A DNA stretch of 64,000 nucleotides from Pseudomonadota bacterium (GTDB taxonomy: Bacteria > Pseudomonadota > Alphaproteobacteria > Rhodospirillales > Magnetospirillaceae): NCBI GenBank assembly GCA_021793155.1, contig JAJYTF010000005.1, positions 162,195 to 226,194 on the forward strand, read 5' to 3'. The notes under the pieces were generated by a model. The model did not search any database and had not been told where the DNA came from. It worked only from the letters and a program-made list of their open reading frames with translations. Positions 1-7,822 of the stretch are shown one piece after another (positions within the stretch are counted from its first letter, which is position 1; every line of letters begins with the position of its first letter). A program made the position numbers and the translations under genes.

Positions 1-1
1 G

Positions 2-1141
2 GTCAACAGCGGGCTCGGCCATTCCTTCGGCGACAAAATTCTCATCGAAGCCGGCCGCGTGCTGGCCCGTGCGGCACGGAACATGGACGGCTATGTGGCT
101 CGCCTCTATTCCGATGCCTTCGGCCTGGTCCTGCCGGCAGCGGACGAAGCGGCGGGCGAGGCTGCCCTGGCGAAGATTCACACTGCCCTCCACGGCCCGC
201 TCAAGATCAGCGGGCATAAGATCTATTCCTCGGTATCCCTGGGAGGAGCCCTGTACCCGCGCGATGGCGATACCGAGCAGCTTCTGTTCCGCCGCGCCGA
301 TATGGCTTTGCGCAACGCCAAGACCGAAGGCCGCGGCGGAAGCGCCTTTTATGCCAAGGGAATGGGGGAATTGCAGCGCGAGCGCCTAGCCATGGTGTCG
401 CAACTGAACGAAGCCTTCGCCGCCGGGCAGCTCCGCCTGTATTTCCAGCCGCAGGTGCGGCTGGACAGTGGCCGCTACATCGGCGGCGAAGCCCTGCTAC
501 GCTGGCCGACGAACGACGGCGGCTTCATTTCCCCAACTGAATTCATTGCCGCTGCCGAAGACTCGGGACTTATTCACGACATCGGCGATTGGGTGCTGGA
601 GGAAACCTGCCGCTGGTTGAGGCGCTGGTCCGACAGCTGCCGCGGCGGACCCCGCCTAGCCTTCAACATCTCACCCGTCCAGTTCCGCCACCCTGGATTC
701 GCCGAACGCCTGGTGAAGCGGATCAGCGGCGCCGGCGTCGATCCCAGCCTGCTCGAACTGGAGATCACCGAGTCCACCCTGTTCCACGATAGCGACCTGA
801 TCGCCACGCAGCTTCGCGATTTCCGCTCAATCGGGATGCGGGTCGCCGTCGATGACTTCGGCACCGGCTATTCGTCGCTCAGCCGCTTGAAGATGCTGCC
901 CATCGATACATTGAAGATCGATCGCTCCTTCGTCGTCGACATGACGGAAAGCCCCGAGAACCACAGCATCGCCGAAGCCGTGGTCAGGATCGGCCACCTC
1001 CTCGGCAAGGAAGTCGTGGCCGAAGGAGTGGAGACGGTGGCGCAAGCGGAATGCCTGCGGGCCATCGGCTGCGAGTTCGGCCAAGGCTTTCTGTTCTCGC
1101 CGGCAGTGCCGCCCGAGAAATTCGCCGAGATGCTCGAATAA
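2..1141 (+). CDS. GGDEF-like/EAL cyclic-di-GMP phosphodiesterase, 3' part
   Basis: The gene is open to the left edge, so its N-terminus is missing. The first visible residues (about 1-115) are the C-terminal half of a GGDEF domain, but the signature reads YSDAF instead of GGDEF, so this half should not make c-di-GMP. An EAL domain follows from about residue 120. It has the EAL signature (GEALLRW), the catalytic pieces ELEITES, DDFGTGYSS and LKIDRSF, and the late VAEGVE glutamate, so it looks competent to hydrolyse c-di-GMP. Degenerate GGDEF domains in such fusions often act as GTP-sensing regulatory modules; that role is inference here. The stop lies 43 bp before the sensor kinase at 1185, on the same strand, so co-transcription is likely. 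Confidence 0.9.
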   Translation, partial: VNSGLGHSFGDKILIEAGRVLARAARNMDGYVARLYSDAFGLVLPAADEAAGEAALAKIHTALHGPLKISGHKIYSSVSLGGALYPRDGDTEQLLFRRADMALRNAKTEGRGGSAFYAKGMGELQRERLAMVSQLNEAFAAGQLRLYFQPQVRLDSGRYIGGEALLRWPTNDGGFISPTEFIAAAEDSGLIHDIGDWVLEETCRWLRRWSDSCRGGPRLAFNISPVQFRHPGFAERLVKRISGAGVDPSLLELEITESTLFHDSDLIATQLRDFRSIGMRVAVDDFGTGYSSLSRLKMLPIDTLKIDRSFVVDMTESPENHSIAEAVVRIGHLLGKEVVAEGVETVAQAECLRAIGCEFGQGFLFSPAVPPEKFAEMLE

Positions 1142-1184
1142 CCCCGGGCTAGTTTGAGGCTGGCCCGGGCGGTGGAGGTGGCCC

Positions 1185-2474
1185 ATGCCGTTCCAACTCT
1201 TCGGAATTGACGGGCTCAGCCCGCATGGCACATGCCTGCTGTGGTTCAGTTCCCTGTTCTGGACCCATGCGACGGCCGATGCGCTCATCGCACTGGCCTA
1301 TTACTCCATCGGCGTAACGCTGGTGATGATCGCATCGAAGCGCCGGGAGAGCCTGTTCCGTGGGGTAAGCCTGCTGTTCGCCGCCTTCATCCTGGCCTGT
1401 GCCACCAGCCATCTGTTTGAAATCTGGACTTTGTGGCACCCCGACTACGGCGCGCAGGCCGTGGTGAAGATCGTTACTGCGGTGGTCTCGGTGGCAACGG
1501 CCACGATCATGTGGCCCCTGCTTCCCCATCTGGTTTCCTTGCCGAGCATCGCCCAGCTCGAAGCCACCAACGGCGCCCTTAATGCGGAAATCGCCGAACG
1601 CCGGCAGGCCGAGGCGGCTCTGGCTCGCTACGCCAAGGAACTGGAAGAAAGCAACGTCCGCCTCGAAGGAACGCTCCAGCATCTCGACATTGCCCGCCGA
1701 CAGCTGGTGCAAGCCGAGAAAATGGCTTCCCTGGGGGGGCTCGTCGCCGGCATCGCGCATGAGATCAACACCCCGATCGGCAACGGAATTACCATTTCAA
1801 CCAGCCTGACCGAAGTGGTGCGCCGATTCCGCGGCGGCCTCCAGGATGGTGCACTCAAACGCTCTCGGCTCGATTCCTTCACCGATGACGTGGACGAGGC
1901 GGCGCGCCTGTTGACCTCCAATCTAGAAAATGCGGCTGAGCTGGTGCAAAGCTTCAAGCAGGTTGCCGCCGACCAGGCGTCATCACAGCGCCGCCAGTTC
2001 GACCTGCATGAGACCATCGAAGAGGTCGTCGCCACTTTGCGCCCGCGTTTCAAGCGCACCGCCCATACGGTGGAGATCGACATCCACCCCGGTATCCGGA
2101 TGGACAGCTATCCCGGCCCGCTGGGACAGGTGGTGACCAATCTGGTGACCAATTCGCTGGTCCACGCCTTCGGGCAGAGCGACCACGGCCATATCACCCT
2201 GACGGCAAGGCAGCGGGCCGACGGCCGGATCGACATGGTCTATCGCGACGATGGGGTGGGGATACCGCCCGCCGTGCATCATCGCGTCTTCGAGCCGTTT
2301 TTCACCACCCGCCAGGGGCAGGGAGGGACCGGCCTGGGATTGCACGTGGTCTACAACATCGTGACCAACGTGCTGGGCGGGAGCATCTCCCTCGCCCCCG
2401 GGTCGGCGGCCGGCGCCGTCTTCGTTCTTGAGCTGCCGGCGACCGCACCCACCCTGCCACGGGCTACCGGCTGA
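1185..2474 (+). CDS. Ethylene-receptor-like sensor histidine kinase
   Basis: The 429-aa protein starts with three predicted membrane helices (about residues 20-118). D32, Y39, I42, I69, C72 and H76 fall at the same relative spacing as D25, Y32, I35, I62, C65 and H69 of Arabidopsis ETR1, whose Cys/His pair binds Cu(I) and ethylene. The ETR1 proline after the isoleucine is glycine here. A coiled coil (about 122-180) leads straight to a HisKA box with phospho-acceptor H192 (AHEINTP). An ATP-binding domain ends the protein (NSLVHAF, DDGVGI, GTGLGLHV). No GAF or receiver domain is present. SD GGAGGT sits 5 nt before the ATG. The 3' end overlaps the convergent dehydrogenase gene by 11 bp. No response regulator is adjacent, so the output is unknown; the EAL gene just upstream is a candidate partner by position. 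Confidence 0.88.
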   Translation: MPFQLFGIDGLSPHGTCLLWFSSLFWTHATADALIALAYYSIGVTLVMIASKRRESLFRGVSLLFAAFILACATSHLFEIWTLWHPDYGAQAVVKIVTAVVSVATATIMWPLLPHLVSLPSIAQLEATNGALNAEIAERRQAEAALARYAKELEESNVRLEGTLQHLDIARRQLVQAEKMASLGGLVAGIAHEINTPIGNGITISTSLTEVVRRFRGGLQDGALKRSRLDSFTDDVDEAARLLTSNLENAAELVQSFKQVAADQASSQRRQFDLHETIEEVVATLRPRFKRTAHTVEIDIHPGIRMDSYPGPLGQVVTNLVTNSLVHAFGQSDHGHITLTARQRADGRIDMVYRDDGVGIPPAVHHRVFEPFFTTRQGQGGTGLGLHVVYNIVTNVLGGSISLAPGSAAGAVFVLELPATAPTLPRATG

Positions 2475-5235
2475 CCCGATCCAGCAAATAGACGATCGAC
2501 CGGTAGGGTACCCCGGCGTGGTCGGCCAGGCCGATCTCGCAGGTTCGGTTCGACGAATAGCCTGCCTCGGTCCCGGGCGGCACCTGGTCGGCCAGGCGGC
2601 GCAGCGCATGGTCGTTCAGTTCTGGCGTGGTAAACCCCTTGTCGCCGGCGAAGCCGCAGCAACCGACCCCATCCGGCAGCACCACATGGGTGGCGCAGGC
2701 TTTGGCCAGCGCCAGTAACTTGTCGTCGAGGCCCAGTTTGCGCGCCCCACAGTTGACATGGACCAGTACCGGCTGGGGCTGGGGCGTGACAGCCAGGCGG
2801 GGCAACACCCGGTCGTGCAGGAACTCCACCAGATCGAGGACGGCAGGCCCGGCGCCGAGCGCCGTGCGCATGCGCCAGCTGCAGGTGCTCGCATCGGCGA
2901 TGACAGGGATACGCCCCCCGTCCGACGCATCGAGGAGAGCCTGACGCAATTCCTCGGCTTTCGCCTCGGCGGCCTCGGCCAGTCCCTTGCTTTCGAAGGG
3001 CTGCCCGCAGCAAAGCTCGGCCAGCCCGGAAGGCAGGATGACCTTGAAGCCGGCCCGCGCCAGCACCCGCGCCGTAACTGTCGGGAGCGAATCGGATTCC
3101 GGGTCATCTGCCGCCGGCCCCATGGTGCGGGATACGCAGGCCGGGAAATACACGACCGGCTCGGCAGATGGCGCGCTCGCCGGGATCGTCAGGACCTGGG
3201 CGGCGGTCGGCAGGTTGGGGCTCAGCTTCGGCAGGCGGCCAACCACCTTGCCCGCCGCCCGGGCGACCGAGAGGCCGGCCCGCGCCGCCGCAAGGACGCT
3301 GCCGTAATGGCCGGCGGTCCAATCGCCTACGGCCTTGGCCAAGGGGCCATGCCGCCGCCCCCGAAGGGCTTTGGTCAGCACCCCGGTTTCGATTCCGACC
3401 GGACAAGCCATAGCGCAAAGGCCACAAGCGGCGCAGGTGTCGATGCCCTGGTAGTCATAGAGTCGGCGCCACTCCGCCGCATCCTCGCCGGCGGCGGCGC
3501 GCCGCGAGATTTCACGCCAGCCGACGATACGTTGCCGGGGGGACAGGGTCAGTTGGTGCGATGGGCACATTCGCTCGCAGAACCCACATTCGATGCAGGC
3601 GTCGACCAGCGGGTCCGCCGGCGGCAACGGCTTCAGGTTTTCCAGATGGGCCCGCGGATTGACATCGAGAATGACACCGGGATTAAGCAGCGCCAACGGG
3701 TCGAGCAGCCGCTTGACCGACCACATCAACTCGGTAGCCTCCCGTCCCCACTCCATCTCGACGAAGGGAGCCATGTTCCGGCCAGTACCGTGTTCGGCTT
3801 TTAGCGAGCCGTCATATTTTTCCACCACCAGCCTGCAGATGTCGTCCATGAAGCGGGCATACCGGTCGACCTCGGCGGCATGGCCGAAATCCTGGGTGAA
3901 GACGAAATGCAGGTTTCCGTCCAGGGCGTGGCCGAAGATGATCGCCTCGTCATAGCCGTGCTTGGCGAAAAGCGCCTGTAGATCCAGGGTGGCGGCGGCC
4001 AGATCTTCGATACGGAAGGCGACATCCTCGATGATGACCGTGCAGCCCACGGGCCGCACGGCGCCCACCGCCGGCAACAGGCCTTTGCGGATCTTCCACA
4101 ACGCACCGGTCGCGGCCGGATCAGAAGTGAACGCGGGCGGAAACAAGGTGCTGACACCCGCCAGCAGGGCATTGATCGCGGCGAGGTTTCGCGCCAGCCC
4201 CGCCTCGTCGTCGGCGCGCGTCTCGACCAGCAACGCGGCGACCCCTTCGGGCAGCCCGTTGATTTCCTCGGGCATGCCCGGCTTGCCTTCGACCGAACGC
4301 AGGGCGGCGCGGTCCATCAGTTCCACCGCGGCAACCGGCGTCGCCTTGAGCAGCGCCACGCTGCGGCAGGCCTCGCCGATGTCGGGAAACACCAGCAGCC
4401 CACTCGCTTTGGCCGCCTGCTCGGCGACGGTGCGGAAGGTGATCTCGGCGATGAAGCCGAGAGTGCCTTCCGAGCCGATCAGCAGGTGCTGCAGGATGTC
4501 AACCGGATCGGTGAAATCCACCAGGGCGTTGAGGCTGTAGCCGGTGGTGTTCTTGATGGCGAACTTCCGCCGGATGCGTTGGGCAAGGGCGGCGTCGGCG
4601 CGCACCCCTGCCGCCAGTTTCTCCAGCCCGGACAGCAATTCACCGTGCGAGCGGCGAAAGGCCACGACACTGCCCGGATCGCCGCTGTCCACCAGCGTGC
4701 CGTCGGCGAGGATGAAGCGCATCGACAACAGCGTCTGATAGCTGTTGTCCGAGGTGCCGCAGCACATGCCCGAAGCATTGTTGGCGGCAATGCCGCCGAT
4801 CTTGCAGGAGTCGATCGAGGCCGGGTCCGGCCCGATCTTGCGGGCAAAAGCGGCAAGCCGGCGGTTGGCCTCGGCACCGATCACGCCTGGCTGCAGGCGG
4901 ATGGCGGCGGCGCCCTTGTCCACCACGATACGGTTCCAGCCGTCGCCCAAAACCATCAACACGGAATCGGTGACCGCCTGGCCGGACAGAGATGTACCGG
5001 CGGCCCGAAAGGTCACTGGAGCCCCGTGACGCCGGCAGCTGGCCAGAACCCTGGCGACCTCGGGCTCACTATCCACCTTGACCACCACCTGCGGGATCAG
5101 CCGGTAGAAGCTGGCATCGGTGCCGTAGGCAAGTCGGCGCAAAGGATCGGTGATCAGCCGCTCAGCGGGAATGAAGCGCGCCATCTCCTGGCGCAGCACG
5201 TCATAGTCGGGCGTCCGGTTTTGGATAAGATTCAT
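2464..5235 (-). CDS. FAD/Fe-S D-lactate dehydrogenase (Dld-II type)
   Basis: This 923-aa single-chain oxidoreductase joins a GlcD/Dld-like FAD half to a LldE/GlpC-like iron-sulfur half. A PCMH-type FAD domain occupies about residues 40-215 (RAAGTSLSGQAV, then a Gly/Asn-rich cofactor loop), followed by an FAD-oxidase C-terminal domain to about 520. Two [4Fe-4S] ferredoxin motifs follow, CIECGFCERMCP near 545 and CAACGLCAMACPVG near 600. Two cysteine-rich CCG motifs come last (CCGQPF near 745 and CCGFAGDKGF near 860). This architecture and length match the quinone-linked D-lactate dehydrogenase Dld-II of Shewanella and relatives; another 2-hydroxy acid cannot be excluded. It would feed electrons from the cytoplasmic membrane face into the quinone pool. 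The start is divergent from the gene at 5375, with a shared intergenic promoter region. Confidence 0.85.
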   Translation of the reverse strand: MNLIQNRTPDYDVLRQEMARFIPAERLITDPLRRLAYGTDASFYRLIPQVVVKVDSEPEVARVLASCRRHGAPVTFRAAGTSLSGQAVTDSVLMVLGDGWNRIVVDKGAAAIRLQPGVIGAEANRRLAAFARKIGPDPASIDSCKIGGIAANNASGMCCGTSDNSYQTLLSMRFILADGTLVDSGDPGSVVAFRRSHGELLSGLEKLAAGVRADAALAQRIRRKFAIKNTTGYSLNALVDFTDPVDILQHLLIGSEGTLGFIAEITFRTVAEQAAKASGLLVFPDIGEACRSVALLKATPVAAVELMDRAALRSVEGKPGMPEEINGLPEGVAALLVETRADDEAGLARNLAAINALLAGVSTLFPPAFTSDPAATGALWKIRKGLLPAVGAVRPVGCTVIIEDVAFRIEDLAAATLDLQALFAKHGYDEAIIFGHALDGNLHFVFTQDFGHAAEVDRYARFMDDICRLVVEKYDGSLKAEHGTGRNMAPFVEMEWGREATELMWSVKRLLDPLALLNPGVILDVNPRAHLENLKPLPPADPLVDACIECGFCERMCPSHQLTLSPRQRIVGWREISRRAAAGEDAAEWRRLYDYQGIDTCAACGLCAMACPVGIETGVLTKALRGRRHGPLAKAVGDWTAGHYGSVLAAARAGLSVARAAGKVVGRLPKLSPNLPTAAQVLTIPASAPSAEPVVYFPACVSRTMGPAADDPESDSLPTVTARVLARAGFKVILPSGLAELCCGQPFESKGLAEAAEAKAEELRQALLDASDGGRIPVIADASTCSWRMRTALGAGPAVLDLVEFLHDRVLPRLAVTPQPQPVLVHVNCGARKLGLDDKLLALAKACATHVVLPDGVGCCGFAGDKGFTTPELNDHALRRLADQVPPGTEAGYSSNRTCEIGLADHAGVPYRSIVYLLDRVSR

Positions 5236-5374
5236 GACAGTCTCTTTTTGATTGGTAATATATTCTTACCACGAATTCCCCCGGAGTCAAAGCCCTGCCG
5301 GTTCCAGGGATTGCGCCGCCCCTGTATTTCACACAGCCTTGCCGGACAATATGACTCGGCCATATGATGGTGCC

Positions 5375-7822
5375 ATGGACAAGGAACGCCGCACCATCGG
5401 CATATACGTGGTTCTTGCGGTGGTTGGCTGGTCGGCATTGGTCTCGGCCTCGCTGTCCTGGAACCTGCATCGGGCGCGGGACGCGGCCTACGCTTTGGCG
5501 CGCAACGAAGCCGCAAGCTCTATCAACAAGGATCTGGCACTGAGACGGTGGGCGGCTTCCCACGGCGGCGTCTACGTGCCCATCGACGAGGCGACCCCAC
5601 CCAACCCGTATCTTGACGTCCCCAATCGCGAAATCGACGGCCCTGACGGGAGTACGCTGACCCTGATGAATTCCACCTACATCCTGCGCCAGATGCAGCA
5701 AGCCTTTGCGCAAGATGCCGGGGTCAGGGTCCGCATCACCAGCCTGCGCCCGATCAATCCGATCAATGCTCCCGACCCGTGGGAAAGGCGGGCACTCGAA
5801 CGGATCGAACAAACGCCGGCACTCGACGAGATATCCGAAGCTACCGAGATCGACGCCAAACCCCATATTCGCATGCTGCGCGCCATGCGCGTCGAGAGTA
5901 CCTGCCTGAAATGCCATGCCCGGCACGGTTACCGCCTGGGCGACGTGCGCGGCGGCATCAGCGTTACAGTGGCCATGGAGCCCTTCTTCAGCCAGTTGGA
6001 GACCGATAACCAGGCCATCCTGGGATCCCACGGCGGCGCGTGGATCCTGGGACTGGCCGGCATCATTTTTTTTGACCGCCGGGCGCGCCGGCGCCTGGTG
6101 GAACGGGCGGAGGCCGAGGAGCGTTTGCAGCAACTTGCCCATTACGACCCGTTGACCCAGCTTCCTAATCGCCTTCTGCTGGCCGATCGCCTGGCCCAGG
6201 CGATCGCCCAGGCGCGGCGCAACAATGCGCTGCTGGTGATCGGCTTTCTCGACCTCGATGGCTTCAAAACCGTCAATGACAGCCTGGGGCATGGCGTCGG
6301 CGACCGCCTGTTGGTCGAGGTCGCCGACCGCCTGAAAGGCTTCATTCGGGGCGGTGATACCATCGCTCGGCTGGGCGGCGACGAATTCGTCCTGGTCCTG
6401 GGCGGCCTCGACTCGCTTCAGGAATGCGACAGCGTCCTCAATCGGGTGCTTGGCGCTATCGCCGCCCCGTACACGGTCGATGGAAGAAACCTGAAGCTCT
6501 CAGCCAGCATTGGCGTGACTTTGTGCCCGAGCGACGGGAGCGACCCCGAGACGCTGATCCGCCACGCCGATCAGGCCATGTACTCGGCCAAACAGGCCGG
6601 CCGCAACCGCTACCATCTATTCGACGCGGAAAGCGACCGACAGGTTCATGCTCACCGCGAGGCCTATGCCCGTATTGCCGCGGCCCTCGACCAGAATCAG
6701 TTCCGCCTTTACTACCAGCCGAAGGTCGACATGCGCACCGGCCAAGTGCTCGGCGCCGAAGGGTTGATCCGCTGGCAACACCCGGATCGGGGGCTGCTTC
6801 CGCCGGCCGAATTCCTCCCGCTGGTCAACGAAGGCAATCTCGCCGTTCCCGTCGGCGAGTGGGTCATCGATAGCGCGCTGCGCCAATTGCTCGCCTGGCG
6901 CGAGGCCGGCCTCGACCTCAGGCTCAGTGTCAACGTCGCGGCCCGCCATCTTCAATACGGCGACTTCATCCTGCGCCTGGAGCGCATCGTCGCGCCCTAC
7001 GCGGAGGATCTTGTCCGCCGGCTGGAATTCGAGGTCCTGGAGACGGCGGCGCTGGAGAACGTTTCGAACATTGCCCAACTGATCCAGGGCTGCCAGCGGC
7101 TGGGGATCGACTTTGCCCTCGACGACTTCGGCACAGGCTATTCGTCCCTGAGCTGCCTCAAGCGGCTGCCGGCCCGCACCTTGAAGATCGACCAAAGCTT
7201 CGTCCACAGCATGCTGGTGGACATGGAAGCCCTGGCCATCGTCGAAGGCGTCATCAGCCTCGGTCGCGCCTTCCGCCGGGACGTCATTGCCGAAGGCGTG
7301 GAGTCCCCGGAACACGGCCTGGTTCTAATCCAGCTCGGCTGCAACCTGGCCCAGGGCTATGCCATAGCCAAGCCAATGCCGGCAGAAAAGCTGGCGGAAT
7401 GGATCAGCTCCTGGACGCCCGATCGGCGCTGGCTGGATGCCGGCCTGCAGCCCCTGCCGCGCGAGGATCTTCCGTTACTGGCGATGGAAATGGAGCATCG
7501 CAACTGGATGGAGGCCATGCTGACCTGGCTGCAATCGGCCGATCAGGGCGCCGGTGGCCTGCCCCAGCTCGATCCTCATTCCTGTCGCTTCGGTCGCTGG
7601 TACGAAGGAGCGGGGCGCGAGCGCTACAGCCAATTGCCATGCTTCAGGGCCCTTCGGCCCAGGCATGAACGACTCCACCGGCTGTCCATGGAACTGGCCG
7701 AGTTGAGCGGCGCGGGGCGGATCGACGAGGCGCGTTCCCGCATCGGCGAACTGATACAGGCCCGGGACCACCTGCTGCATTCCCTCGAAGAATTGAAGCA
7801 GGTCGTTCTCAGGCAGCCGTAA
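5375..7822 (+). CDS. Haem-binding DUF3365-GGDEF-EAL-CZB cyclic-di-GMP enzyme
   Basis: The 815-aa protein has a membrane helix at about residues 8-30. A periplasmic Tll0287-like (DUF3365) domain with a c-type haem motif C177-L-K-C-H181 follows, then a second helix near 218-233. A GGDEF domain comes next with an intact RLGGDEF active site. The EAL domain reads EGL (GAEGLIRW) but keeps DDFGTGYSS and LKIDQSF. The last ~110 residues form a CZB zinc-binding domain (HRNW, CRFGRWYEG, RHERLH). The protein therefore seems to combine redox or ligand sensing at haem, zinc sensing, and opposing c-di-GMP synthesis and breakdown. I chose the ATG at 5375, just before the first helix; in-frame ATGs at 5351 and 5252 would only add a poorly conserved stretch. 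Confidence 0.85.
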   Translation: MDKERRTIGIYVVLAVVGWSALVSASLSWNLHRARDAAYALARNEAASSINKDLALRRWAASHGGVYVPIDEATPPNPYLDVPNREIDGPDGSTLTLMNSTYILRQMQQAFAQDAGVRVRITSLRPINPINAPDPWERRALERIEQTPALDEISEATEIDAKPHIRMLRAMRVESTCLKCHARHGYRLGDVRGGISVTVAMEPFFSQLETDNQAILGSHGGAWILGLAGIIFFDRRARRRLVERAEAEERLQQLAHYDPLTQLPNRLLLADRLAQAIAQARRNNALLVIGFLDLDGFKTVNDSLGHGVGDRLLVEVADRLKGFIRGGDTIARLGGDEFVLVLGGLDSLQECDSVLNRVLGAIAAPYTVDGRNLKLSASIGVTLCPSDGSDPETLIRHADQAMYSAKQAGRNRYHLFDAESDRQVHAHREAYARIAAALDQNQFRLYYQPKVDMRTGQVLGAEGLIRWQHPDRGLLPPAEFLPLVNEGNLAVPVGEWVIDSALRQLLAWREAGLDLRLSVNVAARHLQYGDFILRLERIVAPYAEDLVRRLEFEVLETAALENVSNIAQLIQGCQRLGIDFALDDFGTGYSSLSCLKRLPARTLKIDQSFVHSMLVDMEALAIVEGVISLGRAFRRDVIAEGVESPEHGLVLIQLGCNLAQGYAIAKPMPAEKLAEWISSWTPDRRWLDAGLQPLPREDLPLLAMEMEHRNWMEAMLTWLQSADQGAGGLPQLDPHSCRFGRWYEGAGRERYSQLPCFRALRPRHERLHRLSMELAELSGAGRIDEARSRIGELIQARDHLLHSLEELKQVVLRQP

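Follow-up and report, generated by a model that had tools for sequence, protein, structure and literature searches.

A bacterial sensor kinase that carries the membrane domain of the plant ethylene receptors raises two questions when one of the residues essential to ETR1 is replaced in it: whether it still senses ethylene, and what its signal controls. Both arise at the beginning of the 64,000-nucleotide stretch of Magnetospirillaceae (Rhodospirillales) DNA analyzed here, which we call the window and whose relevant features are collected in Table 1. The original prediction, made from the sequence alone, described a histidine kinase with an ethylene-receptor-type copper site in its membrane domain, joined to an active-looking kinase core and lying next to an EAL gene.

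Table 1. Positions of the kinase, its predicted sites, and the upstream regulator in window coordinates
Feature	Position	Strand	Basis
REC-DUF3369-GGDEF-EAL response regulator, 3' part	1..1141	+	Pfam; stop at 1141
Regulator-kinase gap, 43 nt, GGAGG before ATG	1142..1184	+	sequence reading
ETR1_N-type histidine kinase, 429 aa	1185..2474	+	ORF list; Pfam ETR1_N and HATPase_c
ETR1_N domain (residues 13-122) with three membrane helices predicted	1221..1550	+	Pfam, AlphaFold2
D32 codon (= ETR1 D25, AzoEtr1 D35)	1278..1280	+	alignment
Y39 to I42 codons (= ETR1 Y32 to I35)	1299..1310	+	alignment
G43 codon, ETR1 Pro36 position	1311..1313	+	alignment
I69, C72, and H76 codons, predicted Cu(I) site (= ETR1 I62, C65, H69)	1389..1412	+	alignment
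K95 codon (helix 3), which may pair with the site aspartate	1467..1469	+	invariant in two alignments
Predicted helical linker, residues 122-176	1548..1712	+	AlphaFold2; pLDDT down to 39 at 171-180
H192 codon, predicted phospho-acceptor, H box GIAHEINTPIG	1758..1760	+	motif/alignment
HATPase_c, residues 312-420	2118..2444	+	Pfam, E 7.7e-23

By profile score and alignment, the window kinase is a member of the ETR1_N domain family. The Pfam model (PF25487) matches residues 24-119 with 114.6 bits against a curated cut-off of 27 (E 2.6e-33), the AlphaFold2 model and the alignment give three membrane helices with a cysteine and a histidine four residues apart in helix 2, and ETR1_N matched in 0/14 control genomes, so the claimed homology to the ethylene-receptor membrane domain is well founded. 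The model, a monomer with a mean pLDDT of 73.4 (10-residue means of 73-91 over residues 21-120 and of 78-91 over residues 31-120), has helices at residues 22-52, 56-84, and 88-117, placing C72 and H76 inside helix 2, and the residues named in the original prediction (D32, Y39, I42, G43, I69, C72, and H76) all stand at those positions in the translation. In the kinase core, the sensor-kinase motifs were all found: H192, N319/N323, D355-G357-G359, F372, and G381/G383/G385, which we take to be the H, N, G1, F, and G2 boxes; with the HATPase_c match, they bear out the description of the kinase as active-looking. At E 0.001, Pfam gave no HisKA match in the window kinase (the orthologue in genome G146 has a weak one) and no GAF, PAS, or receiver domain, as had been claimed for GAF and receiver. 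The titles of the 50 listed of 548 Foldseek matches to the whole model read as sensor kinases and their relatives. For the sensor domain (residues 1-122), a sequence search for a solved structure gave one chance match (E 1.1), in agreement with the lack of a solved structure for this domain in the available text of a 2026 review (PMC13012798).

Our reference for the site is AzoEtr1 of Azospirillum brasilense. We took it to be the sole ETR1_N match in A. brasilense ATCC 49958 in a family search of named Azospirillum genomes (L120:289-1866, minus strand, 525 aa), because the length of 525 aa, D35, C75, and the neighboring gene fit the available description, in which mutants are named D35A and C75A (PMC11819568); by eye, the gene beside this receptor reads as peptide chain release factor 3. 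The window domain aligns to AzoEtr1 without gaps from the aspartate to the histidine, with C72/H76 on C75/H79 and identity at 53/109 domain residues. The claimed ETR1-like spacing is confirmed through this alignment and the Pfam profile, with ETR1 Y32 as the counterpart of Y39. The AlphaFold2 model of AzoEtr1 has helices at 25-55, 62-87, and 91-120, a three-helix layout resembling that of the window kinase, and C72/H76 are unshifted, the aligned pairs lying in helix 2 of both models; the AzoEtr1 model is a monomer with a mean pLDDT of 64.7, and the comparison is one of helix limits, leaving aside site geometry and helix bend. A conserved lysine is named as the salt-bridge partner of the aspartate in the available text of PMC13012798, and K95 is possibly that lysine. 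The membrane domain is under about as much constraint as the kinase, with dN/dS of 0.115 and 0.116, respectively, against an orthologue of 83% identity and of 0.32 and 0.26 against one of 66%.

Of the seven residues required in ETR1, the window kinase has six (6/7), and because Pro36 is replaced by Gly43, one of the points tested for an ethylene receptor in the functional sense failed. The original alanine scan of ETR1 is said to be that of Wang et al. in 2006. In the available texts, Pro36 is reported among the seven residues essential for ethylene binding by ETR1 (PMC6586836), and the tomato ETR3 change Pro36Leu (Never-ripe) leads to ethylene insensitivity (PMC6727826). The original prediction was right that glycine stands in place of this proline; it treated the change as a minor difference, but the proline is reported essential in ETR1 and the position is Gly or Ser throughout a clade of 13. 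A sequencing slip at G43 was ruled out: the 83% identical orthologue P0002 also has Gly, and P0003-P0007 have Ser.

Searches with ETR1_N matched 31/297 genomes in the order, 17/55 in the family, 29/398 in the phylum, 38/77 in the class of a Nostoc genome, and 10/11 of the genomes behind named loci. The alignment began with 137 rows, from the loci among the matches listed (at most 30 per search) and from 120 listed of 7941 proteins. Fragments and divergent rows (L130, L156, L157, L158, and L187, the first four also proline-less) and duplicates (L123, L160, P0001, P0002, and P0004) were removed by hand. P0012 and P0013 were then taken out as identical rows, and 125 remained; L004 gave no match. 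Across these domain rows, C65 is conserved in 125, H69 in 123, Y32 in 121, D25 in 118, and I35 and I62 in 110 each. Pro36 is kept in 83/125, the remainder having Ser (14), Thr (13), Gly (8), or Ala (7), and this fraction is not a population frequency, the rows being tilted toward the window's family and toward 13 near-alike proteins with P36 changed to Thr.

The window domain groups with 12 others in a clade (n=13) that has Ser in 10 members and Gly in three at the Pro36 position, with support of 100 (bootstrap) and 95 (SH-aLRT) on a careful tree from which the proline column was excluded and on which the bootstrap had not fully settled. All 13 members retain D, Y, I35, I62, C, and H, and near the site they differ from other rows in having F25 (13/13), A29 (12/13), and S75, beside H76 (12/13). 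The Pro36 position changed a minimum of seven times on a quick tree and five times on the careful tree, which omits seven further long rows (three of them proline-less); these counts carry no direction and come from trees with few columns relative to their many rows. The other six residues are mostly or all retained in a proline-less Thr group, in L146/L150, and in L185/L186. In a proline-less group of nine (L098, L102, L109-L114, and L159), I62 is Phe in 9/9 and I35 is altered in 7/9, and from these sequences it looks as if proline loss can accompany further decay of the site.

The Thr group consists of 13 ETR1_N kinases (P0017, P0019-P0021, P0023, P0025, P0026, P0031, P0036, P0043, P0047, P0052, and P0118); it has one extra residue ahead of the cysteine in the alignment, and one member comes from what is, by name, a Saccharospirillaceae MAG. 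L154 and L155 are natural copper-site variants in which H69 is Arg, Pro36 is Ala, and the cysteine is retained. In the raw table, Ser stands beside the histidine in 26/39 proline-less rows versus 8/79 rows with proline; a tie between this serine and proline loss was dropped because only three independent pairs lie on the starred branches. Among the matches listed in the open-licence PMC literature, we found no paper on natural loss of Pro36.

The second question, that of output, concerns the gene upstream. An EAL domain does adjoin the kinase, as claimed; it belongs, however, to a REC-DUF3369-GGDEF-EAL response regulator rather than to a bare EAL gene, and the window edge cuts it. Its open frame occupies L005:11054-13336, opening with a TTG about 1.1 kb before the window. 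In a 720-residue stretch scanned from L005 position 11174, which is no start codon, Pfam found DUF3369 (E 8e-41), GGDEF (E 1.1e-31), and EAL (E 1.2e-71). The REC score is 22.6 bits for the window and 21.6 for L006, below the cut-off of 30.2, and the G146 orthologue is unlisted for REC at E 0.01; by eye, the acidic pair, phospho-acceptor Asp, Thr, and Lys of a receiver align in 3/3 regulators. The GGDEF motif is degenerate in 3/3 (YSDAF, YSDAF, and HSDVF) and failed the test for an active GGDEF. Motifs that we take to be the catalytic ones of EAL domains are intact in 3/3, also by eye (EALLRW, N, ELEITES, DDFGTG, K, E, and Q). With a degenerate GGDEF and intact EAL motifs, the protein most likely hydrolyzes c-di-GMP rather than making it.

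The order of regulator then kinase occurs in three genomes, with gaps of 43 nt in the window, 63 nt (to the aligned start) in L006 (MAG BP5.bin88; kinase 83% identical), and 36 nt in L190 (G146; kinase about 66% identical); the gene context was readable for these three, and not for P0003 and P0005-P0007. No promoter-like site or terminator was found in the 43-nt gap, whose hairpin (z -1.47, with 18/200 shuffles equally good) is not clearly above shuffles. As a response regulator, the neighbor is the likely output of the kinase, which gives it more weight than the original prediction could see. In G146, a REC-PAS-PAS-histidine kinase (L190:7298-9322, plus strand) overlaps the ETR1_N kinase by 8 nt; this gene is missing in the window. 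A literature search gave no paper on the regulator-kinase pair among the matches listed in open-licence PMC.

In a set of kinases chosen by similarity (the best 80 of 510 loci), 37 loci have a kinase with an HE(I/L/V)NTP(I/L/V)G box, and a DUF3369 ORF is present at 8/37 of these versus 0/43 of the others (Fisher p 0.0013, a statistic that ignores kinship); the eight include the window's own orthologue L006. The other seven DUF3369 regulators all end in HD_5 (PF13487), and DUF3369 is found with HD-GYP in the available text of a survey of Alphaproteobacteria (PMC9756655). The DUF3369 regulator at L008 comes after a REC-PAS kinase, and the ETR1_N gene of the same genome lies nearby on the opposite strand. 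Around ETR1_N genes, a GGDEF or EAL ORF other than the receptor gene lies on the same strand within 1.5 kb at 6/100 loci (L003, L097, and L127 of the window group, together with L110, L164, and L176), and a recognized receiver ORF lies on the same strand at 17/100; both are lower bounds, since neither the regulator reported next to AzoEtr1 nor the weakly scoring receiver in the window group was picked up by the small home-made profiles.

We favor, with a probability of about 0.55, the reading that this kinase would bind Cu(I) at C72/H76, sense ethylene or a small olefin despite Gly43, and pass phosphate to the upstream EAL regulator, changing c-di-GMP. What the sequences show in its favor is the ETR1_N domain with six of its seven site residues, a kinase core that is intact, an EAL with intact motifs next to a degenerate GGDEF, the aligned receiver D, T, and K, and a gene order common to three genomes. 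Copper binding, the identity of the ligand, phosphotransfer between kinase and regulator, and regulation of EAL are the steps that we infer. Cu(I) would be held between C72 and H76 with D32 close by, and ligand binding would shift the helices, a shift that the helical linker would relay to the kinase core. If this kinase responds like ETR1, whose kinase activity ethylene is reported to inhibit, autophosphorylation would fall when ligand is bound; less phosphate would then reach the upstream regulator, and the hydrolysis of c-di-GMP by EAL would change. That the unphosphorylated regulator would be the active hydrolase is a working guess, made because it fits the drop in c-di-GMP in A. brasilense, where ethylene lowers both c-di-GMP and biofilm by a route that the available text states to be unknown (PMC11819568). 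Ethylene or a similar gas would then likely control the choice between swimming and settling via this kinase.

Counter to this reading, the REC domain of the regulator scores below its cut-off, the gene order comes from three genomes, and ETR1_N kinases elsewhere mostly have no c-di-GMP neighbors, while the loss of Pro36 is the main evidence against an ethylene receptor because the residue is required in ETR1. That loss could have moved the sensor off ethylene, leaving a Cu(I) site that responds to copper itself, CO, acetylene, or some other olefin and signals to the same regulator. Such a shift would suit a clade of 13 from which an ETR1-essential proline is gone while Cys and His are fixed, and which has its own F25, A29, and S75 near the site; the genome, moreover, has two other ETR1_N kinases that keep Pro36, which might make a third ethylene sensor redundant. 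Yet the proline changed repeatedly (seven or five times) with the other six residues kept in several groups, which is the pattern of a dispensable helix residue, subject to the caveat that in the group of nine the other residues are not kept. The link between Pro36 and S75, too, is not significant after relatedness is counted (three independent pairs), and we regard a change of ligand as rather unlikely. That gas sensing was lost altogether and the domain is kept as a structural membrane anchor and dimerizer is an improbable account: although one ETR1-essential residue is missing, six of the seven are invariant in the clade, an anchor has no need of Cys, His, Asp, and Tyr, and the membrane-domain dN/dS is near the kinase value.

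Doubt could instead fall on the output, with the kinase sensing ethylene and the neighboring regulator being no true partner. We give little credence to such incidental adjacency, since the two orthologues, the more distant at 66% identity, have the order and short gaps of the window, and since kinases with this type of H box are associated with DUF3369 regulators elsewhere among bacteria, even though the pair is seen in three genomes only and a small single-receiver gene lies just downstream elsewhere (as reported for AzoEtr1 and as seen for L002, L099, and L105). The favored reading, of a Cu(I)-based sensor of ethylene or a small olefin acting through the upstream EAL regulator, can be extended to the clade in a more tentative form, which we hold at somewhat less than even odds: the whole clade may work without Pro36, and the window branch may be wired by its operon to a c-di-GMP phosphodiesterase, giving an ethylene-to-c-di-GMP route.

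The source genome has three full ETR1_N kinases, that of the window, L001 with all seven site residues kept, and L002 with the proline kept and I35 changed to Met. At L205:7903-11052 (plus strand), this I35-to-Met paralogue is followed by an overlapping single receiver of 145 aa and then by a REC-PAS-kinase, and a receiver and REC-PAS-kinase resembling these neighbors are also present in L193 (G281). A PAS-GGDEF protein of the same genome, at L004:1-1734 (minus strand), has an ETR1_N-like front scoring 16.9 bits, below the cut-off, in which the Cys-x3-His pair is absent by eye. Within the window, the gene at 2464-5235 (minus strand) encodes an FAD-linked oxidase with Fe-S and CCG domains, and its end overlaps the end of the kinase gene by 11 nt; in L006 the kinase and a similar gene also converge tail-to-tail, there without overlap. 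Another c-di-GMP protein near the receptor, at 5252-7822 (plus strand), combines Tll0287-like, GGDEF, EAL, and C-terminal CZB domains in one chain. Methylthio-alkane-reductase-type enzymes are a possible source of ethylene. An own source of this kind was rejected: four PF00148 genes lie within 7 kb on one contig and resemble a nif set, and there are no others.

That ethylene sensing touches c-di-GMP in bacteria is already a known idea, and a diguanylate-cyclase gene grouped with GeiEtr2 has already been published (PMC6682694, available text). Elsewhere in the same order, a 329-aa protein (L093:1411-2400, plus strand) fuses ETR1_N to an intact GGDEF, with Pro36 kept and Ile62 changed to Val; in the same family, a 302-aa ETR1_N-GGDEF protein with an intact motif (L198:6088-6996, plus strand) has Gly for Pro36, Val for Ile35, and Phe for Ile62. 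By their domains, both are apparently one-component receptor cyclases. What is new from this locus is an operon partner that carries a hydrolase domain: the regulator of AzoEtr1 is without a recognized output domain in the available description (PMC11819568), and here the receptor shares an apparent operon with a predicted c-di-GMP hydrolase, which makes the link from ethylene to c-di-GMP testable using two purified proteins. The 13-member clade is also a natural series of variants at the position altered in tomato Never-ripe. Should its members bind ethylene, the seven-residue test would be too strict for bacterial ethylene receptors; should they not, they would show how the fold changes ligand.

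Among known systems, AzoEtr1 resembles the window protein in its gapless D-Y-I...I-C-H site and in being a bacterial histidine kinase with a neighboring regulator gene (PMC11819568). It differs in having Pro36, a PAS domain, and another H box, and its regulator, as far as described in the same source, is downstream, 135 aa long, and without an output domain, whereas that of the window is upstream and has a predicted hydrolase; ethylene binding is proven for AzoEtr1 (PMC11819568) and predicted for the window protein. SynEtr1/UirS of Synechocystis likewise carries an ethylene-binding domain on a phosphotransfer sensor kinase (PMC5812497, PMC11819568); compared by its available description, it differs in being also a UV-A photosensor and in having UirR/Slr1213 and LsiR, and no c-di-GMP enzyme, as partners. 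Arabidopsis ETR1 shares the spacing of the site residues, with D25, I35, P36, I62, C65, and H69 taken from the available text of published papers, but has Pro36, GAF, and a receiver, the comparison being by published positions and not by sequence; plant receptors are reported to signal mostly without kinase activity (PMC11819568). GeiEtr2 of Geitlerinema is cyanobacterial and keeps all seven residues, and the available text describes no regulator-hydrolase pair (PMC6682694). The REC-DUF3369-HD-GYP regulators have the same front end as the regulator of the window and adjoin or overlap kinases with the same H box at 7/8 DUF3369 loci; they end in HD (PF13487), in place of the GGDEF-EAL end found in the window regulator and both its orthologues.
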